Source of the DNA: Phycisphaerae bacterium RAS1
GTDB lineage: Bacteria > Planctomycetota > Phycisphaerae > UBA1845 > Fen-1342
Length of the DNA: 64,000 nt
Assembly: GCA_007859745.1 (NCBI GenBank)
Contig: SMLU01000001.1
Coordinates: forward strand, 310,001-374,000
Direction of reading: 5' to 3'
Shown here: one piece after another, positions 4,472 through 59,699 of the stretch
Layout of the letters: each line of letters opens with the position of its first letter
Position numbering within the stretch: position 1 is the first letter of the stretch
The notes under the pieces: generated by a model
Told to the model about the DNA's origin: nothing
Seen by the model: the letters and a program-made list of their open reading frames with translations, nothing else
The model's database searches: none
Program-made: the position numbers and the translations under genes

Positions 4472-4643
4472 ACGTGGCCAAAGCTTTTTGGCCGATGCCG
4501 CGGGCCGGGCCGTTTTTCCGAACCCGCCGCGCCAAGCGGCGGGTTGACGATCGTCAGCGATTGGCGCCTCACGGCGGCGGACGTCACCCCGCCGCTTGGC
4601 GCGGCGGGTTCGGACAGAAATGCCCGTCGAGCCTGCCAAATCT
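4472..4643 (-). repeat. Long palindromic element, copy A
   Basis: Inverted arms of 33 bases at 4517-4549 and 4582-4614 differ at one position; each carries the core CCGAACCCGCCGCGCC. The shared sequence continues outward to GTGGCCA (left) and GCCCGTCGAGCCTGCC (right). The GTGGCCA end is about 64 bases from the permease start. The gene-free stretch 4409-4783 holds this element, the permease promoter, and about 120 bases before the radical SAM gene in which I see only its Shine-Dalgarno sequence. Confidence 0.9.
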
Positions 4644-4783
4644 GTGGCACACCCGCGGCGGAGGATTGAGGACCCGTTGCGGATCAGATTCGACGGTAGA
4701 CGGCTAACCCGGCCGCGAGCAAAATGTCTTTGGCTCCAGTGGTGTTTGTCCCCCCCGGATCGTCTTACCGTGGAGGTGCTGAC

Positions 4784-6553
4784 GTGGTTTCTGCGCACGC
4801 CGCCGTCCATCGCCGCATTCGATTCATCAACCCCAACGCGGCCCTGACGAATATCACGATGCCGGCGCTGATCCGGCGGATGACGTTTTCGCGCAAGGCG
4901 ATCTTTGCGCCGACCGGGCTGACGATCTGCGCCCAGGTTATGCCGCGGCACTGGGATGTCGAGGTGGTGGACGAGTGCACGCTCGAGTCGCCGCATGTGC
5001 CGCGCGCGGACGTGGATATCGTCGGCATCACGGCGATGACGACGCAGGCCAAACGGGCGTACCAGATCGCGGATGCCTATCGAAAGCTGGGCGTGACAGT
5101 CGTGATGGGCGGAATTCACCCGAGCGCGATGCCGGAGGACGCGCTTCAGCACTGCGACAGCGTTTGCAAAGGCGACGCCGAATCGACGCTGCCCTACTTG
5201 ATCGAGGATTGGGAGCGGGCCGAAAGTAGCCCGGCCGCCTGTAGCCCGGCCGCCCCCGGCCGGGACGAAATTACCCTCGGCCCAGACGCCCCGGCCGCGG
5301 CTGGTCGTGACGCCGTCCCGGCCGGGGGCGGCCGGGCTACATGCGGCGGCCTCAAGCGCATCTACGACTGGGCGTCCTATCCCGAAGCGCCGATCGCGAC
5401 GCCGCGCAAGGATTTGCTGAATCCCTCCGATTACCTGATCGCCAACCCGATCCAGACCACGCGCGGCTGCCCGCACACGTGCAGCTTCTGCACCACGCCC
5501 GGCGTTTTCGGCCGCAAGTTCCGGCTGCGGAAGATCGAGGATATCGTCGAAGAGATTCGCGAGGCGAAGGAGCGGCACAACTCGTGGTGCTTCATCTTCG
5601 CGGACGATGATTTCGGCGGAAACCACAAGTGGGCCCTGGAGCTGTGCGCGGCGCTGAAGCCGTTGAAGATCGCGTGGGCCAGCCAGTGCGACATTCTCAT
5701 CAGCCGCAACGAGAAGCTGCTGACGGCGATGCGCGAGAGCGGGTGCGCCGGGCTGATTCTGGGGCTGGAGAGCCGCAAGCAGGACACGCTGACGGAGAGC
5801 GGCAAGCGATTCGTCAAGAGCGACACGTACGAATGGCGGATTCGGCGGATTCAGGCGGCGGGGATCACGCTCTGGGGCGCGTTCATTTTCGGCTTCGACA
5901 CGGACAACTGGCAGGACCTGATGCAGACCTGCCGCTGGGCGCAGCGGATGAACCTGGGCATGTCGTGTTATCCGATTCTCACGCCCTATCCCGGCACAGA
6001 TTTCTTCCGTGAGTTCGAGAGAGCCGGGCGAATTCGCACGTTCGACTGGGAGCGTTACAACGGCGCGTCGGTGGTTTACGAGCCGAAGCGCGTCAGCCCC
6101 AAGCAGCTTCGCCATGCGCAGATGGCGGCGTTTGCGGAGTTCTACTCGCCGCGCTCGGCCCTGCGACGGCTCGGGGTGTATCCGTTCAAGTCGCGCGCCT
6201 GGGCGGCGAACCTGGCGATCTGGCAGGGCATCCGCTTCTACTATCGCCGGCGGAACCGGTCCGTGCCGCGTTTTTCGGACTTCCTGAGCCCGCAGTCGTC
6301 CGCGTGGAACTATCCGAATGAGAGCTGGGCGGATGAGTACTACCGGGCGCGCGGCGCGGCGGCGCAGGTCGCGTCGGCGGCGACGGACGGCGCCGCGCGA
6401 GGTGAATCGGCCACGGTCCGCGACGAGGGCGAGGGCTGCGCCTGTCCGAGCCTCGAGACGCTTGCGGCCACGGCCGTCTCAGGGGCGGATCCGTTCGTGA
6501 TGGCGGCGCAGGCGCTCGGGAGTCGCGTGGCCGGGGCGGCCCGCGCCGGATGA
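4784..6553 (+). CDS. B12-binding radical SAM protein with an in-frame palindromic insert
   Basis: 589 residues from a GTG at 4784, chosen because GGAGGTG lies five bases upstream. The first 140 residues look like a cobalamin-binding domain (VVDECTLE, VDIVGITAMTTQAKRAYQIA, VMGGIHPSAMPEDAL). The radical SAM motif is RGCPHTCSFC with Cys229, Cys233 and Cys236, followed by the barrel (FADDDFGGN, LILGLESRKQDTL). It is close to family members that modify lipids or hydrophobic substrates (HpnP/BchE-like superfamily); the reaction cannot be assigned. Residues about 148-186 are encoded by an inserted hairpin element, Ala/Pro/Gly-rich and unlike the rest. It is transcribed divergently from the ABC operon. 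Confidence 0.85.
   Translation: MVSAHAAVHRRIRFINPNAALTNITMPALIRRMTFSRKAIFAPTGLTICAQVMPRHWDVEVVDECTLESPHVPRADVDIVGITAMTTQAKRAYQIADAYRKLGVTVVMGGIHPSAMPEDALQHCDSVCKGDAESTLPYLIEDWERAESSPAACSPAAPGRDEITLGPDAPAAAGRDAVPAGGGRATCGGLKRIYDWASYPEAPIATPRKDLLNPSDYLIANPIQTTRGCPHTCSFCTTPGVFGRKFRLRKIEDIVEEIREAKERHNSWCFIFADDDFGGNHKWALELCAALKPLKIAWASQCDILISRNEKLLTAMRESGCAGLILGLESRKQDTLTESGKRFVKSDTYEWRIRRIQAAGITLWGAFIFGFDTDNWQDLMQTCRWAQRMNLGMSCYPILTPYPGTDFFREFERAGRIRTFDWERYNGASVVYEPKRVSPKQLRHAQMAAFAEFYSPRSALRRLGVYPFKSRAWAANLAIWQGIRFYYRRRNRSVPRFSDFLSPQSSAWNYPNESWADEYYRARGAAAQVASAATDGAARGESATVRDEGEGCACPSLETLAATAVSGADPFVMAAQALGSRVAGAARAG
5226..5340. repeat. Face-to-face GTAG hairpin pair inside the radical SAM gene
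   Basis: GTAGCCCGGCCGCCT (5226-5240) is followed by a longer copy, GTAGCCCGGCCGCCCCCGGC and on to CGGGACG (5241-5267). The reverse complement occupies 5314-5340 and ends CTAC. The gene frame stays open across it and the flanking sequence (IEDWERA before, LKRIYDW after) reads as a continuous protein family. A fragment ending in the same GGCCGGGCTAC occurs at about 50008-50020. Confidence 0.85.
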
Positions 6554-6570: not shown

Positions 6571-6632
6571 GTAGCGTCGGACCTCCGTGTCCGACGCTGA
6601 AATCGCCGTCGGACACAGAGGTCCGACGCTAC
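6571..6632. repeat. Face-to-face GTAG hairpin pair (CGTCGGACC type)
   Basis: GTAGCGTCGGACCTCCGTGT and CCGACG (6571-6596) are followed by the inverted copy at 6606-6632, ending GACGCTAC. It lies between convergent genes (radical SAM stop at 6553, S9 peptidase stop at 6650), so it could end transcription on both strands, but there is no T-run. Related copies are at 43220-43247, 49241-49313 and 58196-58223. Confidence 0.8.
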
Positions 6633-6649
6633 AGTTTCTTCGCGACCTG

Positions 6650-8913: not shown

Positions 8914-9086
8914 GCGTGGCCAGCGTTTTTGGCAGACGCCGCGGGCCGGACCGTTTTTCCGAACCCGCCGCGCCAAGCGGCGGGTTGACGATCGTAGGCG
9001 AGTGGCGCCGCAGAGACCGGGGACGTCGACCCGCCGCTTGGCGCGGCGGGTTCGGACAGAAACGCCCGTCGAGCCTGCCAGAATCC
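8914..9086 (-). repeat. Long palindromic element, copy B
   Basis: 33-base arms at 8958-8990 and 9024-9056 match those of copy A, and the outer sequence also matches (GTGGCCAGCGTTTTTGGCAG on the left, GCCCGTCGAGCCTGCCAGAA on the right). The GTGGCCA end is about 55 bases from the S9 peptidase GTG. The gene-free stretch 8861-9334 holds this element, the TACAAT box at 9144 and a hairpin at 9286. Confidence 0.9.
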
Positions 9087-16889: not shown

Positions 16890-17030
16890 AGGGGCTGCCG
16901 TCCTGTCCGAACCCGCCGTGCCAAGCGGCAGGTCAACAATCGTTAGCGCTCGGCGCTCCACCGGCCGCGGGCGTCACCCCGCCGCTTGGCGCGGCGGGTT
17001 CGGACGGATCGCCGCCGTCTGCCGCGCGCG
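16890..17030 (-). repeat. Long palindromic element, copy C (diverged)
   Basis: Arms at 16906-16938 and 16972-17004. The right arm is identical to copy A; the left arm has several changes (CCGTGCC, GGCAGGTCAACA). The outer flanks match the other copies poorly, so it may be older. It lies upstream of the asparaginase gene in the shared orientation and follows the stop of the small membrane protein gene. Confidence 0.8.
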
Positions 17031-20682: not shown

Positions 20683-20860
20683 GGCCCGGGCCGTTTTTCC
20701 GAACCCGCCGGACCGTTCTTCCGAACCCGCCGCGCCAGGCGGCGGGTTGACGATCGAGCGCGATCGGCGCCACAGAGACGCGAACAGGCCGCGGACGTCA
20801 ACCCGCCGCTTGGCGCGGCGGGTTCGGACAGGCAGGCCCGCCGAGACTGCCAGAATCCGC
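20683..20860 (-). repeat. Long palindromic element, copy D, with partly duplicated arm
   Basis: Arms at 20720-20752 (one base changed, CCAGGC) and 20796-20828. Just outside the left arm, 20691-20710 repeats its outer end (CCGTTTTTCCGAACCCGCCG), a partial duplication not seen in the other copies. The left end is about 63 bases from the serS start and the right end about 50 bases from the gene at 20911. Confidence 0.9.
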
Positions 20861-27699: not shown

Positions 27700-27862
27700 A
27701 TGGTCTCGGCGGGCATTTCTGTCGGAACCCGCCGTGCCAAGCGGCGGGTCGACCATCCTCCGCAAACGGCGCCACACAGGCCGGAGACGTCAACCCGCCG
27801 CTTGGCGCGGCGGGTTCGGAAAAACAGCCCGCCTGCGGCGTCTGCCAAAAACTCTGGCCACG
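27700..27862 (+). repeat. Long palindromic element, copy E (inverted in the window)
   Basis: Arms near 27722-27754 and 27788-27820. Here the GTGGCCA-type end is on the right (GCCAAAAACTCTGGCCACGC, about 27843-27862). The element therefore faces the acyl-CoA dehydrogenase gene in the same way that copies A-D face theirs, with the end about 72 bases before the ATG at 27934. Confidence 0.9.
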
Positions 27863-42950: not shown

Positions 42951-43289
42951 GGATTAAGCCCTCATATACGTAGAACGGCGCGGTAATCCCGTGCGTCCGG
43001 CGATTGAGGCGGCCGCGGTCGGCGCGAATCGCACGCCAGCGACGATTCTCAACCCCTGAAAAATACCTCAGGCGACGCGAATCACGGGGAGGTCAGCCCA
43101 GTGTTGAAACGCTACGCTCTTTCCGAGCCAACAGCAACAGATCCGCACGCAGCGCGGCGGGACGGGGCGGAACGGGTGGGCGGCCGGCGCGCGTGGTTTC
43201 ATTCACCCCCTCGCCTCTCGCCGTCGGACACGGAGGTCCGACGCTACGCGCGCAACGAGGCGCTACGCGTGCAACAACTCGTGCCGCGG
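42951..43289. other. Intergenic region with one GTAG hairpin
   Basis: 339 bases between genes on the same strand. A CGTCGGACC-type hairpin occupies 43220-43247 (CCGTCGGACACGGAGGTCCG and ACGCTAC). GAGGG lies about 12 bases before the ATG at 42950. Nothing else recognised. Confidence 0.7.
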
Positions 43290-47500: not shown

Positions 47501-48119
47501 GCCGGATGCGCCGACGCGTTTCGGCCTCATCCGCATTTTCGCGACCGACGGCGTTAACACGTTTGACATTACCACCCAGCCGTTCACGATCACCGGCAGC
47601 GGCGAGAGCTCCGGACGCACCGGGCTGCTGGCCAGCGCGGGCCCCGGACAACAGGTGAAGGTCGGAGCAAAGGTCACGCTTGATGGCCGCGCCAGTCGCG
47701 ACACTTCCGATCTCGATGCCGTCCTGACCCATCAGTGGCGTACGGTGGGCGTACCGACGGCGGACCGCGTCGAGCTCTCGGATGCGACGGCCGCGACGCC
47801 GACCTTCACCGCCGCGGCCGAGGGTCGATACCTGTTCGAGCTGGTCGTAAGCAAGGGGGGCCAGCAGAGCAAGCCGTCGCTGGTCACGATTACGGCGCTG
47901 GCGGGCGAAGTCGTCCAGCCGCCGACGCGTCGCGTCGCGCCGGCGAAAACGGACACCGCCGCGGGAGCGCCCGACGACGAGTCACCGGTCGATCTCATGC
48001 AGCCGGACGCCTGCGGGGCGGGCGCGTGCGGGGCGGGCGTGAGCGCCTTCATGCCGCTGATGTTCTCGGCGCTGCTCGGAATGAAGCGTCGCCCGCGTCG
48101 CCAGCCGAACAGGCGGTAG
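44595..48119 (+). CDS. Large secreted zincin-like protein with Cys-Gly C-terminal tag
   Basis: 1174 residues from a GTG at 44595 (GGGAGA six bases upstream). Signal peptide RLLSVCLALGFATSFVSSTVA, then a carbohydrate-binding-like domain (NAVTNGDFSQGLGGWTTH), two or more CARDB-like beta domains (VPGDDVELTLVVRNPG, IKDEMDVVLRLTNSG), and a zincin motif HELGHTFGL at His699 without the usual third ligand at the metzincin position. Ig/PKD-like domains follow. The end is PDACGAGACGAGVSAFMPLM, a hydrophobic run and RRPRRQPNRR: a C-terminal sorting signal with cysteines. Probably a surface protease or an inactive relative. Confidence 0.78.
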   Translation: MRTRRLLSVCLALGFATSFVSSTVAENAVTNGDFSQGLGGWTTHIVTTSFGGTFPQFGATGHGHCVAASYGDSANINVPSGAVGYIEQTVTLPEGTVTLTFKTWGEDDPTDVTVFIVNAGGSSTLVDSFSPPSLFQCQGFFDCACVSSVPGSRSVDLSSFHGQTVRLQFRATSGGVNGTFALFDDIVIDGDPAQLTATLTASATAVVPGDDVELTLVVRNPGGLTINNLMVPAELTRTGEGTAFKSVSSPPLAPMALAPGAQQTFQYIYVASQAGPVTFSAQATGVANITNDNISSNVAMSAVVNIQLSPLVAVLTATPTELEIKDEMDVVLRLTNSGVGPIKAVTSPVKLIEAGDAQFETLSGPEPALIDELAAGASADVRYRLKAKGAGTVVLTGEATGMQGDQAIRSNAAATENIQVQGLEVRMLEPVQVVYGVDLVAGKPTLVRATLVSGFVEKKSIDVLLEVEDPAGAGFSERVTIELDPGDNAVLLPRTGHFALGGPGKITVTLDPENTATQEQESKKREESPAVHVIAPLGLRLARMTVTNVSTLDIFTGEPVIQTAIAPDLATVLPSAEAAIEFLNAVYPLPAFENAAGLFYPNAVEVSGRHILIPVTSRILNYLSQFGRLNYAEKLIAYTPDLAKYHTGKVIGKSTLWDGLGGDDANTTGEAKRNGKAGMVTPYMIPGNTRTITPGIVAHELGHTFGLPLPQNGSPCGVFTTCEEYARFGEGGRAAGEGVWVRGRDFGLTDEQIKIPASARNFMGVNPLFRDGPKIFTWVAKDDYEHLLSKMRSLFRDPEALLISFEISQAGEVTPQPWYTFWTSDLSESDDEGTHAVRLLDAEGRVLAEHKFSPTFIRETEPAMEDPTVDATAVTMAIKRPSGLAQIEIVAGDEIVFERDVTASAPVVEVIAPEGGETLAAGKSFTLSWKGSDADGDALHYALSFSDDNGATWSPVVVDLDKPEFDWTAPDAPTRFGLIRIFATDGVNTFDITTQPFTITGSGESSGRTGLLASAGPGQQVKVGAKVTLDGRASRDTSDLDAVLTHQWRTVGVPTADRVELSDATAATPTFTAAAEGRYLFELVVSKGGQQSKPSLVTITALAGEVVQPPTRRVAPAKTDTAAGAPDDESPVDLMQPDACGAGACGAGVSAFMPLMFSALLGMKRRPRRQPNRR

Positions 48120-48555
48120 TCGCGCGGAGTACGGTGGCGCCGTGCGGGGACCGGGCCGGTCTTCGGAGCAGGTCGGCGGATATCAATCGCCCGAATACTC
48201 GCGCACCGTCGGCTGGGATTGCCGTCGCCCAGCCGCCGTCGCAACACGGATGCCAGTTCACGAGGCCGGTTTCCGCCGTCCAGCGAAAGGGCTTTTCCAT
48301 CCCGCCGTCAGCGGCATATCCGACGACAACCGAGCCGTCGGCGGACAGGCCAATTGCCTCACTCGATATCGGCTGCCCGTCGAAATCGCCCAGCGCGACG
48401 ATCCCTGATCCGACGGCCCATCGGAATGGGTTGTCGTTGTCGAAAACGCCCGCCACGACGCGACCATCGTCGGAAATCGCGATGTTGCCGATCAAAATCA
48501 CGATCAAAACCGAACTGGATGCCACCGGCGTCACTCGCAAGGCCCTCCGCCGCAC
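48049..48555 (-). pseudogene. Fragment of a HAF-repeat/extracellular repeat protein
   Basis: An open frame of 168 codons. The part coded by about 48192-48489 has GNIAISDDGRVVAGVFDND, PFRWAVGSG, IGLSADGSVVVGYA and PFRWTAETGLVNW, the repeats of HAF-family exported proteins. The first 22 codons lack a signal peptide, and the last 45 run into the end of the metalloprotease gene on the other strand with no family resemblance. Full members have several more repeats and usually a sorting tag. Most likely a gene remnant. Confidence 0.5.
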
Positions 48556-48606
48556 GCCTGAATTGTACCCGATCGGGAGGCGGAAATCGCGCGCAATCGC
48601 GGCGAA

Positions 48607-48665
48607 TGGTGGGCAATGCCCACGCTACAAGTTCGAAGAACCGCTCCCTCACGGTCGCGGCTCGG
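48607..48665. repeat. Two partial hairpin elements
   Basis: GGTGGGCAATGCCCACGCTA continuing to CAA (48607-48629) is an inverted GTAG hairpin of GTGGGC type. Next, ACCGCTCCCTCACGGTCGCG and GCTCGG (48640-48665) is one end of the 61-bp element in reverse orientation; the other half is missing. Confidence 0.65.
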
Positions 48666-48726
48666 ACAGACCGCTTCCTAGCGGGCGTGCCGCTGCTTCG
48701 GCCGCGCGGCCGGCGGCGACGTGGTT

Positions 48727-48732
48727 TACAAT
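48727..48732 (+). promoter_or_regulatory. -10-like TACAAT for the thioesterase gene
   Basis: TACAAT within GTTTACAATGCCGCC, the same string as before the S9 peptidase, 38 bases before the ATG at 48771. Confidence 0.35.
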
Positions 48733-48770
48733 GCCGCCGGATGTAAGCCTGCTTGGAGGACGCCGACGGT

Positions 48771-49181
48771 ATGCCGACGCCGATTTCCACGTGCGACGTC
48801 GAGATTCGCGTGCGCTACGCCGAAACCGACGCGATGGGCTACCTGCACCACGCCAACTACTTCGTGTACTTCGAAATCGGCCGGACGGAGCTGCTGCGGC
48901 GCAACGGGCTGACGTATCGCGAAATGGAGGAGCGCGGCTTCTTCTACGTCGTTGCCAAGCTGGAGTGCCGCTTCCGCGCCCCCGCTCGCTACGACGACCT
49001 GCTCACGCTGACCACGTCCACCACGCGGCTCTCGCCGTTTCGCGTTGATCACGCCTATCGCGTTTCGCGCGGGCAGACGCTGCTGACCGAGGCCACGTCC
49101 ACGATCGTCTGCGTCGGCCGCGAAGGCAAGCCGGCGCCGCTGCCGGATGACATCTTTGCGGCGCTGAGCGGAGGGACGTAG
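48771..49181 (+). CDS. Acyl-CoA thioesterase, 4HBT/YbgC-like hotdog fold
   Basis: 136 residues from the ATG at 48771; a GGAGGA lies 12-17 bases upstream, rather far. RVRYAETDAMGYLHHANYFVYFEIGRTELL is the hallmark of 4-hydroxybenzoyl-CoA thioesterase/YbgC proteins, with the catalytic Asp in AETDAMG. A TTG at 48753 in frame would give MEDADG first. It hydrolyses acyl-CoA thioesters; the acyl chain is unknown. YbgC relatives often sit with tol-pal genes; none are here. Confidence 0.9.
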   Translation: MPTPISTCDVEIRVRYAETDAMGYLHHANYFVYFEIGRTELLRRNGLTYREMEERGFFYVVAKLECRFRAPARYDDLLTLTTSTTRLSPFRVDHAYRVSRGQTLLTEATSTIVCVGREGKPAPLPDDIFAALSGGT

Positions 49182-49240: not shown

Positions 49241-49313
49241 GTAGCGTCGAACCTCCGCGTCCGACGGTGTTTCAGCGGTTTTCACGCCGTCGGACACGGA
49301 GGTCCGACGCTAC
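49241..49313. repeat. Face-to-face GTAG hairpin pair (CGTCGGACC type)
   Basis: GTAGCGTCGAACCTCCGCGT and CCGACGG (49241-49267), a 19-base spacer, and the inverted copy CCGTCGGACACGGAGGTCCG and ACGCTAC (to 49313). The layout is the same as at 6571-6632. Confidence 0.85.
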
Positions 49314-49344
49314 AGGCGTTTTTAAAGGGGTGTTAGGATTCATT

Positions 49345-49942: not shown

Positions 49943-50040
49943 GTAGGGTGGGCCGTGCCCACCATTCGCCTCCGGACACCTCGGTCCGACCCGACGGACC
50001 GGCCGGGGCGGCCGGGCTACACGCGGCCGTCCGACGCTAC
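49943..50040. repeat. Cluster of hairpin pieces
   Basis: GTAGGGTGGGCCGTGCCCAC (49943-49962), then GGTCCGACCCGACGGACCGG, GGGGCGGCCGGGCTAC (to 50020) and CCGTCCGACGCTAC (to 50040). These are parts of three different GTAG hairpin types joined end to end. The last overlaps the end of the protease gene. Confidence 0.65.
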
Positions 50041-57402: not shown

Positions 57403-58119
57403 TCATCCGCCGCTCAGCAAGGCGACGAATGGGTTGATGTCGAGCACGGTCAGGCTGCCGTCGCCGTCGATATCGCCATTGCTGATGTTGCAGCCGGGAA
57501 ACATGGCCGCGTATGCAATCGGATCGGAGAGGGCCAGGACGAACGGGTTGATGTCGAGCACGTTGACCGCGCCGTCGCAGTTCATGTCGCCCGGCAGATT
57601 TCCGCACACGGACGGATCGAGCGCGACGAAATGAGCGGCGTCATCGAGGTTGATCCAGCCGAGATTCTCTGCCCACGCGAAGCCGCCTAGCCGGCAGGCG
57701 CCCCCGGCCGTGTCGATTCGAGCGGGGTTGGCGGGCATTGCGGCGGCTCCACCGTCGAAGTTGATCCAGCCGCCGTTCTCACTCCAGGCGTAGCCGAAGA
57801 GTTCGTCGCTGAGCGGATCGCGATTGACGCCGAAGTCGGCGCCGTCCAGATTCGCGTAGTGCTGGCTGGTTCCGCCGCCGGAACCCGGGGCCCCATCGCC
57901 GAGGTTGATCCAGCCGACGTTTTCGGCCCAGATGAAGCCCGACAGAAACGTCGCGCCGATGCGGACGCCCGACGACCCGGCCGGATCGCCCGCGTCGCGC
58001 CAATTCAGCCAGCCGGCGTTTTCGCTCCAGGCGAACCTGTCGGTCGTGTCGATGTTTGAATCGGCCGGGGCGGCGGCTGCGAGCAGCGCGACGCACGTTG
58101 CAGAGAGGATCGTCTTCAT
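57403..58119 (-). CDS. Secreted protein with WAENxGWINL repeats and dockerin-like tail
   Basis: 238 residues with AAGGAG before the ATG and a signal peptide (ILSATCVALLAAAAPA). Four repeats share FAWSENAGWLNW, FIWAENVGWINLGDG, YAWSENGGWINFDG and FAWAENLGWINLDD, about 45 residues apart. The middle has a gap with HYANLDGADFGVN. From GDMNCDGAVNVLDINPFVLA the dockerin-like module follows, ending VALLSGG. The WxENxGWIN repeat occurs in many secreted bacterial proteins of unknown function. Confidence 0.82.
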   Translation of the reverse strand: MKTILSATCVALLAAAAPADSNIDTTDRFAWSENAGWLNWRDAGDPAGSSGVRIGATFLSGFIWAENVGWINLGDGAPGSGGGTSQHYANLDGADFGVNRDPLSDELFGYAWSENGGWINFDGGAAAMPANPARIDTAGGACRLGGFAWAENLGWINLDDAAHFVALDPSVCGNLPGDMNCDGAVNVLDINPFVLALSDPIAYAAMFPGCNISNGDIDGDGSLTVLDINPFVALLSGG

Positions 58120-58195
58120 GGCTGCTCCTTGCTGGCCGCGGCTGCCGTGTCGGCGACGACGTGGCGGTCCCCGGTATTTGCAGATTCAGCGATCC

Positions 58196-58223
58196 GCCGT
58201 CGGCCACAGAGGGCCGACGCTAC
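58196..58223. repeat. Single inverted GTAG hairpin (variant)
   Basis: GCCGTCGGCCACAGAGGGCC and GACGCTAC, a CGTCGGACC-type copy with paired changes in both arms (ACC to GCC), so the stem is kept. Confidence 0.7.
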
Positions 58224-58253
58224 GGCCGACTCGGTGGTCGGCTGCTGTGTCGG

Positions 58254-59699
58254 TCAGTACGAGAGGTTCGCCCACGGATTCGTGGTACCGACGCCCGCGC
58301 CGCCGGTATCGCCGCTGATGGCGACGCTGTCCGGCGCCAGGACGATCGGCGCGACCTTGTTGCTGGCGGCGATTTCGTAGTTGATGGTGTTGCCGGCGCA
58401 CGAGTTGCGCAGGATCAGGTTGCCCGTGCCGTTGACATCGATGCCGCGGTCGGCGTCGGTGACGCTGTTGCCGTCGATGCGATTGTCGGAGCCGGTCGCA
58501 AAAATACCGGCCCCGTCGTTTGTACCGCTGCCGTTGTTGTCGCAGTGATTGTCGACAATGCGGCAGTCGGACGAGCACTGGATTCCGTCGTGCACGTTGT
58601 TTACCACGTTGCAGCCGCGGACGGTGCCGCCGATGGTGGTCACGATTCCGTCGTCGCTGTTGGCCGTCACGGTGCAGTTTTCGATGAGCGAGTTGCCGGT
58701 GGCCGAGATGCCGTCATCGCCGTTTTCGCGCGCGGTGCAGCCGCTGACGGTGCTCTCGCCCACGCTGATGCCGTCGATGTCATTACTCCAGGCCGAGCAG
58801 GAGACGACGGTGGACGTCGAGCCGGCGCTGAATCCGCTGCTGCGGTTGTCGTTGGCGGAGCATTGCGCGATCAGCCCGCCTTCGCCGACGACGATGCCCA
58901 CGTTGTTCTGATTGGAATGACAGTTCGACACGATTCCGCCGTCGCCGGCGCTGATGCCGTCGCCATTGTTGAGCGTGGCGTTGCAGTTGGAGATGGTGCC
59001 GCGCCCGCCCAATACGACGATGCCGCCGGCATTGTTGATGTAGCCCTCGCAGTTCATGATGTTCGAGTTTGTGCCGGCGGCGATACCGTTCGCCCCGTTT
59101 CCGCCCGCAACGGTGTTGCGAATGAGGACGTTGTTGCTGGTGGCAATGCCGTTGATCGAGCAGCTCGAGATCCGGCAGTTCTCGATGAGCGAGCTGGTAT
59201 TGACGCTGATTCCGTTGCCGGTGATCTGCGTGATGACCAGGCCGCTGAATTCGTCCGAGCCGCTTTGGTCGCCCTTGATGCCGTCGTTGCCCCAGCCGCG
59301 GAGGGTGCCGTTACGGATCGTAATGCCAAAGAGCGTGCCGACGGCGCCGTTGTTAATGTCGATTCCCGCCAGCGAACCGGCGACGCCGACCAGCTCAAAG
59401 CCGCGCAGGTCGATTGTGACGTGGCTCGCGACGACTTCGACGCCCATCTTACCCGCCACGCCCTGCACGTTGCCCGTCAGGTAGTACGACCCCGGCTGGG
59501 TGATCTTGTAGAGCGAGTCGCCGTCGCCGGGCGTCGTCGCTGACGAGATCGGCGTGCGCGGCTCAACTTGGGCCAGGGTCTTCATCGTTGAAGCAATCGG
59601 CCCCGCCGGCGGAAGCAGGTCGCCGGCGGACGCGCCTGAAACCGCAACCAGTGCGGCAGCCCAACGGAACAACGCACGCGCGTTTGCGCAGGACTTCAT
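58254..59699 (-). CDS. Secreted parallel beta-helix protein
   Basis: 481 residues from the ATG at 59699 (AGGAGA upstream); signal peptide to about 25 (ALFRWAAALVAVSGASA). After an opening common to secreted right-handed beta-helix proteins (YKITQPGSYYLTGNVQGV and VTIDLRGFELVGV) come about fifteen Asn-rich turns such as SLIENCRISSCSINGI and GIVSNCHSNQNNVGI. The C-terminus (NPWANLSY) lacks a dockerin tail. Such folds bind or cleave polysaccharides; no catalytic residues are recognisable. Confidence 0.82.
   Translation of the reverse strand: MKSCANARALFRWAAALVAVSGASAGDLLPPAGPIASTMKTLAQVEPRTPISSATTPGDGDSLYKITQPGSYYLTGNVQGVAGKMGVEVVASHVTIDLRGFELVGVAGSLAGIDINNGAVGTLFGITIRNGTLRGWGNDGIKGDQSGSDEFSGLVITQITGNGISVNTSSLIENCRISSCSINGIATSNNVLIRNTVAGGNGANGIAAGTNSNIMNCEGYINNAGGIVVLGGRGTISNCNATLNNGDGISAGDGGIVSNCHSNQNNVGIVVGEGGLIAQCSANDNRSSGFSAGSTSTVVSCSAWSNDIDGISVGESTVSGCTARENGDDGISATGNSLIENCTVTANSDDGIVTTIGGTVRGCNVVNNVHDGIQCSSDCRIVDNHCDNNGSGTNDGAGIFATGSDNRIDGNSVTDADRGIDVNGTGNLILRNSCAGNTINYEIAASNKVAPIVLAPDSVAISGDTGGAGVGTTNPWANLSY

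Follow-up and report, generated by a model that had tools for sequence, protein, structure and literature searches.

How did GTAG palindromes come to lie inside an open reading frame, between two recognisable protein domains, and what could have carried them there? The question is raised by positions 5226–5340 of a 64-kb stretch of DNA (the window), which corresponds to C1:310001-374000 of a 5.5-Mb genome in seven contigs (G000). We consider it probable that a REPIN-like pair of GTAG REPs was inserted in the loop between the B12-binding and radical SAM domains, was mobilised by a RAYT residing in gcvP, and survived in frame.

Anatomy of the array and of its host gene

The coordinates 5226–5340, which an earlier note had assigned to the GTAG palindromes, proved correct: the core GTAGCCCGGCCG starts at 5226 and 5241 on the forward strand, and its reverse complement ends at 5340 (Table 1). 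The same note described a hairpin pair. GTAG hairpins and inverted arms are present, the arms (5234–5267 and 5314–5347) being 34 nt long, 97% complementary and 46 nt apart, but three units were found, not merely two. Unit 5241–5267 falls within the definition of the GTAG REP superfamily (unpaired GTAG, stem of 5–13 bp, loop of 2–20 nt), and the many genomic copies, often in inverted pairs, that characterize this superfamily were also found, with over 100 matches in both orientations, including pairs. When 5226–5340 was folded as single-stranded DNA, the z-score was −8.65 and none of 200 shuffles folded equally well. A chance palindrome is ruled out by this fold and by the many matching genomic units. 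Across the 64-kb window, the 13-mer core with up to two mismatches was matched 14 times, compared with 6.3 expected and 13 in the largest shuffle.

The repeat sits between the two domains, as the note had placed it, since Pfam matches precede and follow it (B12-binding, residues 36–135 counted from 4793; Radical_SAM, residues 220–383). No NCBIfam equivalog scored above its cut-off for the gene product. The description as an in-frame insert of 115 bases holds in that frame 4724–6553 is open throughout, but 115 alone is not divisible by three.

Of the other 26 genomes in the same family, 15 contain an orthologue, the nearest being about 72% identical; the alignments show no variation in the CxxxCxxC cysteines of the radical SAM domain. 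The spacing from GDAEST to ATPRKD is 75 residues here, 42 in 13 of the 15 orthologues, and 47 and 33 in the remaining two. Segment 5226–5347 is regarded as an insertion because of this difference between 42 and 75 residues; all 15 orthologues lack the element, and none has a linker of similar length. The usual linker has the form DWEAAxERGDDPRxGIxRIYDW, and the corresponding stretch here reads DWERAE[SSPAAC...GRATC]GGLKRIYDW. The alignment thus gives a gain of about 40 codons and the disappearance of 7–8 usual linker residues (xxRGDDPR), a net increase of 99 nt. Precise absence of the repeat from relatives had been proposed as a check: the repeat is indeed absent, but no exact empty site was seen, because part of the usual linker is missing, and for the same reason it does not hold that the flanking protein continues as if nothing had been added. 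The ends of the insert are approximate, as the relatives are too distant to fix them. Judging from the sequences, the 7–8 codons were lost during insertion or afterwards. Eight loci from named planctomycete or Phycisphaerae metagenome-assembled genomes, some being probably the same genomes, gave a similar alignment. The 47-residue orthologue (G015) has LSASSSQRSAGKD in its linker, apparently another repeat.

The AlphaFold model of the radical SAM protein has a mean pLDDT of 51.5 and at this low confidence suggests that residues 147–187 are unstructured. The proposal that such elements can act as linkers is unsupported as it was stated.

Table 1. Positions of the repeats, host genes and embedded transposases. 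Plain numbers are window positions; other locations carry a locus or contig prefix.
Feature	Location	Strand	Evidence or remarks
B12-binding radical SAM gene, longest ORF (start may be 4793 or nearby)	4724..6553	+	ORF list, Pfam, 15 orthologues
GTAG-type REP array	5226-5340	+ frame	One full forward, one truncated forward and one inverted unit
Truncated forward REP unit GTAGCCCGGCCGCCT	5226..5240	+	Exact core match, sequence, comparison with other units
Full forward REP unit, GTAG foot, 8-bp stem, 4-nt loop	5241..5267	+	Fold with unpaired GTAG, z −4.3; exact core match
Spacer between inverted units, 46 nt, in frame (translation predicted)	5268..5313		Inverted repeat pair
Inverted REP unit, CTAC at 5337-5340	5314..5340	-	Inverted repeat pair, exact minus-strand core match
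Approximate inserted stretch, about 40 codons in place of 7–8 linker codons	5226..5347	+	Orthologue alignment
Lone REP unit of the GTAGCCCGGCCG family	49999..50020	-	Sequence matches; no open frame through the unit
gcvP, sole copy, with embedded RAYT and REPs	L065:1916-5599; G000:C1:698415-702098	-	
RAYT inside gcvP	C1:699195-699596		REPs of the window's family at 699041-699167 and 699662-699786
ileS, sole copy, 1428 aa	L067:2-4285; G000:C3:128501-132784	-	RAYT and GGTGVSPVQA repeats in frame
purH, sole copy, 961 aa	L142:2052-4934; G000:C1:616551-619433	-	RAYT in frame
valS of G000, sole copy, 1581 aa	L066:681-5423	+	One IS200-like transposase in frame
alaS of G018	L149:2780-7837	-	Two IS200-like transposases in frame
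rarA/mgsA AAA ATPase, G023	L138:2076-4010	+	RAYT in frame
MmeI-like DNA methylase, G051 and G084	L209:52-4137; L208:1084-3852	+; -	RAYT of the gcvP/rarA clade in frame

The REP family and the RAYT inside gcvP

Among the family matches in G000, 103 units were read at about 40 loci. The array matches dozens of units of this genome at 88–100% identity over 25–40 bases, most of them outside coding frames. These many further copies show that the family has spread, which is in line with the earlier statement that the elements move. The label of an intergenic type is too narrow, as at least seven other genes of the genome carry the family in frame. In the seven proteins, the repeats lie between or inside Pfam domains of one ORF: in the GAD region of AspS, inside the kinase domain of a Ser/Thr kinase, on either side of the embedded RAYT in gcvP, and, in a heparinase, a GH38 mannosidase, a ketosynthase-acyltransferase protein and a PQQ-type beta-propeller protein, surrounded or spanned by Pfam domains. 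Copies were sought via open frames running through REP sites, a procedure that leaves frame-breaking copies uncounted. The tally also leaves aside L180, L183, L190, L194 and L084, which have an open frame and no Pfam support, and L080, L182, L196, L197, L199 and L178, where the REP lies outside recognised domains.

In AspS, the matches of most relatives stop near residue 388–391 and resume near 453–457, with the gap at the repeat. The aspS gene of G010 (L203, C112) carries unrelated repeats in frame in the GAD loop that holds GTAGCCCGGCCG REPs in G000; by comparison of the two sequences, this appears to be one loop with two independent fillings.

The window contains other repeats. A second GTAG family (GTAGCGTCGGACCTC) is represented by an inverted pair at 6571–6633, directly past the radical SAM stop codon, and by further copies near 43233, 49241–49315, 50026 and 58209. 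Five inverted AACCCGCCGCGCCAAGCGGC pairs, with about 70–80 nt between the partners (4521–4610, 8962–9052, 16910–17000, 20724–20824 and 27726–27816), represent a REPIN-like family without GTAG. Repeat units of other families at 48638–48660 (frame 47684–49045, forward) and 58200–58225 (frame 57936–59540, forward) lie in long open frames and are possibly further in-frame insertions.

About 20 Y1 transposases were counted in G000 with Pfam PF01797, and about 20 with NCBIfam NF047646. No RAYT of this genome other than the one inside gcvP is flanked within a few hundred bases on both sides by the window's REP family. The 1228-aa gcvP frame matches TIGR00461 (E 0) on either side of the RAYT, which itself matches NF047646 with 85.3 bits (cut-off 80). 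It is not a free-standing gene, nor does NF047646 demand one. It retains the HUH motif MPDHIH and the catalytic tyrosine region YVCQN, and the flanking REPs are read in frame as VARPPSV... and RPGAAGLH.... Because the same family flanks it, we infer that this RAYT serves the window's REPs, with GTAGCCCGGCCGCCCCCGGCCGGG as the putative single-stranded substrate. The gene also holds short in-frame repeats of another kind (KSEVRSQKSEVKT).

A non-autonomous REP pair, from a GTAG REP family that has multiplied in this planctomycete, placed in Phycisphaerae on the basis of its named relatives, entered the radical SAM gene, as the comparison with orthologues shows. By analogy with other RAYTs, for which cleavage and joining of single-stranded REPs are known (PMC8266576), the transfer would rely on the cutting and joining of a single strand at the REP hairpin, and the flanks of the gcvP RAYT point to it as the mobiliser. 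Seven to eight codons would have been removed upon entry or lost later. The insert would have been kept because it leaves the reading frame open and unshifted: a net 99 nt adds a flexible, Pro/Ala/Gly-rich tract to an already variable linker. The reading frame predicts that the REP tract is translated, and the poor structural model is compatible with its being tolerated as a disordered linker.

Two other histories of the locus were weighed. Drift of a fast-evolving, low-complexity linker into palindromic sequence, with no mobile insertion, is hardly credible: the genome is rich in G+C and the orthologous linkers vary in length (33, 42 and 47 residues), but drift would account neither for the dozens of matching units, mostly outside coding frames, nor for a fold far exceeding that of shuffled sequences. 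Mobilisation by another RAYT, lost or stand-alone, the gcvP RAYT having merely picked up REPs as targets, is unlikely on balance. The genome has its score of Y1 transposases, REPs are able to spread in trans, and REP clusters also occur far from any RAYT; yet no other RAYT of G000 is flanked so closely on both sides by the family, and the one in gcvP has kept both its HUH and its tyrosine motifs.

Transposases embedded in enzymes

The gcvP RAYT would belong to a set of RAYT lineages living as an additional domain inside purH, ileS, gcvP, valS, alaS and rarA between in-frame REPs. The gcvP, ileS, valS and purH chimeras of G000 score as true host enzyme plus transposase, and each is single copy. 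The inserts in valS, ileS and purH are each bounded by in-frame repeats of another kind than the window's family, and the transposases of valS (G000) and alaS (G018) lie between PLPHGRGSE-like repeats. Several further in-frame repeat tracts (GNREQGTGNREQG) were noticed in the ileS of G000.

Among the 27 genomes of the family, ileS RAYTs occupy two places, one near the start of the CP1 insertion (G000, G001, G004, G018 and G010) and one further on (G006 and G019), and purH RAYTs occupy one. A RAYT is also in frame in the gcvP of G010. The ileS (L116) and purH (L144) of G010 contain RAYTs that no longer share an unbroken frame with the host gene; the breaks may be errors of a 390-contig draft or true decay. 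In the order (114 genomes), purH with a RAYT was also found in other families, and ileS in G099, G103 and G109 and gcvP in G109 were added to the set. A phylum-wide purH search in a 294-genome sample, limited by the strict threshold of E ≤ 1e-100, returned the own genome only. HUH lineages that are unrelated to one another, RAYT-like and IS200-like, share the single purH site, the transposase in the purH of G022 being of the IS200-like lineage; the site measures 17–59 residues without insert and 237–546 when filled.

The ileS RAYT used as query gave 33 matches in 26 of the 114 genomes, all in open frames of at least 480 codons, some of which end at contig ends. Because all 33 lie in such frames, the order sample yielded no free-standing member of this subfamily. 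Frames of ordinary stand-alone RAYTs in the same genomes are mostly about 160–300 codons long, and on this ground G+C-driven open frames were rejected as the whole story. RAYT matches in long frames with no recognisable host gene (L141 and L147) were left uncounted.

In 13 pairs of embedded transposases, differing codons amounted to 0.31–0.68 at the third position, 0.15–0.35 at the first and 0.09–0.25 at the second. Since third positions change most, the embedded transposases appear to be under protein constraint, that is, purifying selection. The HUH and tyrosine motifs are retained in nearly all embedded sequences; one ends before the tyrosine region, that of G026 has an arginine replacing the first histidine, and those of valS and alaS escaped the search pattern, their NHVH being read by eye. 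In a tree of 37 RAYTs, the embedded ones group by host gene, with five changes of host-gene label, the minimum possible, against 17.2 in shuffles. The ileS RAYTs form one clade (96/99), those of purH two blocks, and those of gcvP, rarA and mmeI stand together, the rarA RAYT of G023 being nested among gcvP RAYTs. On the tree of the purH host, filled and empty states are scattered, a pattern independent of G022. These sequences suggest that lineages remain attached to a gene, where units are gained, lost or exchanged at the site, and that they rarely move to another gene or from one ileS place to the other. A cluster of four near-identical stand-alone RAYTs within 5 kb (L075; G000:C1:2614672-2619398), three direct and one inverted, was also observed, suggesting recent duplication.

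We infer the mobility, translation and function of the embedded units from these data. An insertion in an essential gene would be retained only if the frame stays open, and the host gene might then guard the unit from loss; the unit would travel mainly with its host gene and rarely hop to another. Sole-copy status, open frames and clustering by host gene are all compatible with this hypothesis. The chances are about even that there are REPtrons living solely as in-frame domains of essential enzymes, maintained by selection on the host, spreading between alleles and occasionally between genes, and seeding in-frame REP pairs; the RAYT, translated as part of the enzyme, would seed pairs like the one in the radical SAM gene.

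It is improbable that the embedded segments are removed before the enzyme works, whether by RNA excision, ribosome bypass over the hairpins or protein splicing. The segments do lie between strong hairpins, an extra domain of about 200 residues would seem to burden IleS, ValS, PurH or GcvP heavily, and frames are broken in the ileS and purH of G010. However, skipped segments need no open host frame, yet nearly all have one; no intein or Hint domain was found among the Pfam matches of the chimeras scanned; and the breaks in G010 may stem from its draft assembly. Domestication, whereby the embedded RAYTs would be fixed, useful domains of their host enzymes and no longer mobile, is doubtful. It would account for the purifying selection, the clustering by host gene and the subfamily never found free in 114 genomes, but not readily for the scattered states on the purH tree, the two insertion places in ileS, the same RAYT clade in gcvP, rarA and the MmeI-like methylase, or the unrelated HUH lineages at one purH site.

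Known systems and significance

Intragenic, in-frame GTAG REPs have been published (Di Nocera, De Gregorio and Rocco 2013, PMC3733652), and the radical SAM copy alone is therefore another case of a known phenomenon. The published REPs likewise have a GTAG foot and a hairpin, form dimers, occur inside ORFs and are translated, tRNA synthetase genes and PVC bacteria included. What differs is that orthologues here reveal the insertion and a partial loss of the linker, and that a RAYT flanked by the same family is in frame in another gene, an arrangement that does not appear to be reported there. Rickettsia palindromic elements are similar as far as described there, as palindromes in frame in protein genes and tolerated in loops (PMC3733652). 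They work alike, and their lineage and repeat sequence are presumably unrelated. We know of no transposase of these elements embedded in host enzymes.

REPtrons, or TnpA-REP systems (PMC8266576, PMC6006769), likewise comprise an HUH-Tyr transposase flanked by GTAG REPs, five subclasses being so arranged. In those papers the transposase gene stands free, REPtrons are described as not being mobile as a unit, and unexpectedly long proteins were set aside as fusions or annotation errors. Here, by contrast, the transposase is embedded in frame in essential enzymes, and different genes harbour related units. The IS200-like transposases of purH, valS and alaS fit TnpA-Y1 class 3 (PMC6006769), an assignment made by eye from motifs only (NHVH, W[TA] and Y....Q), and share its planctomycete hosts, but they are embedded in frame between repeats read as EPRASARA or PLPHGRGSE. 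Inteins and homing endonucleases also place a DNA-cutting domain in frame in essential genes, with reuse of genes and patchy presence; in contrast, the sites here are loops and the ends are REPs. The open-access literature that was searched contained no report of RAYTs or REPtrons in frame in housekeeping enzymes, and REPtrons embedded in essential genes look undescribed.

A whole REP system, including its transposase, seems to have become established within coding sequence. If the chimeras are made as read, a nuclease domain of about 200 residues, together with repeats, is tolerated by single-copy tRNA synthetases and by enzymes of purine and glycine metabolism, insertion has recurred in the same few enzymes, and a mobile element has gained a refuge like that of inteins, though without splicing. 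The embedded units would be natural maps of loops that accept large insertions, and REP-coded tracts and RAYT domains in enzymes should not be dismissed as errors in annotation. How RAYTs persist and move becomes testable.
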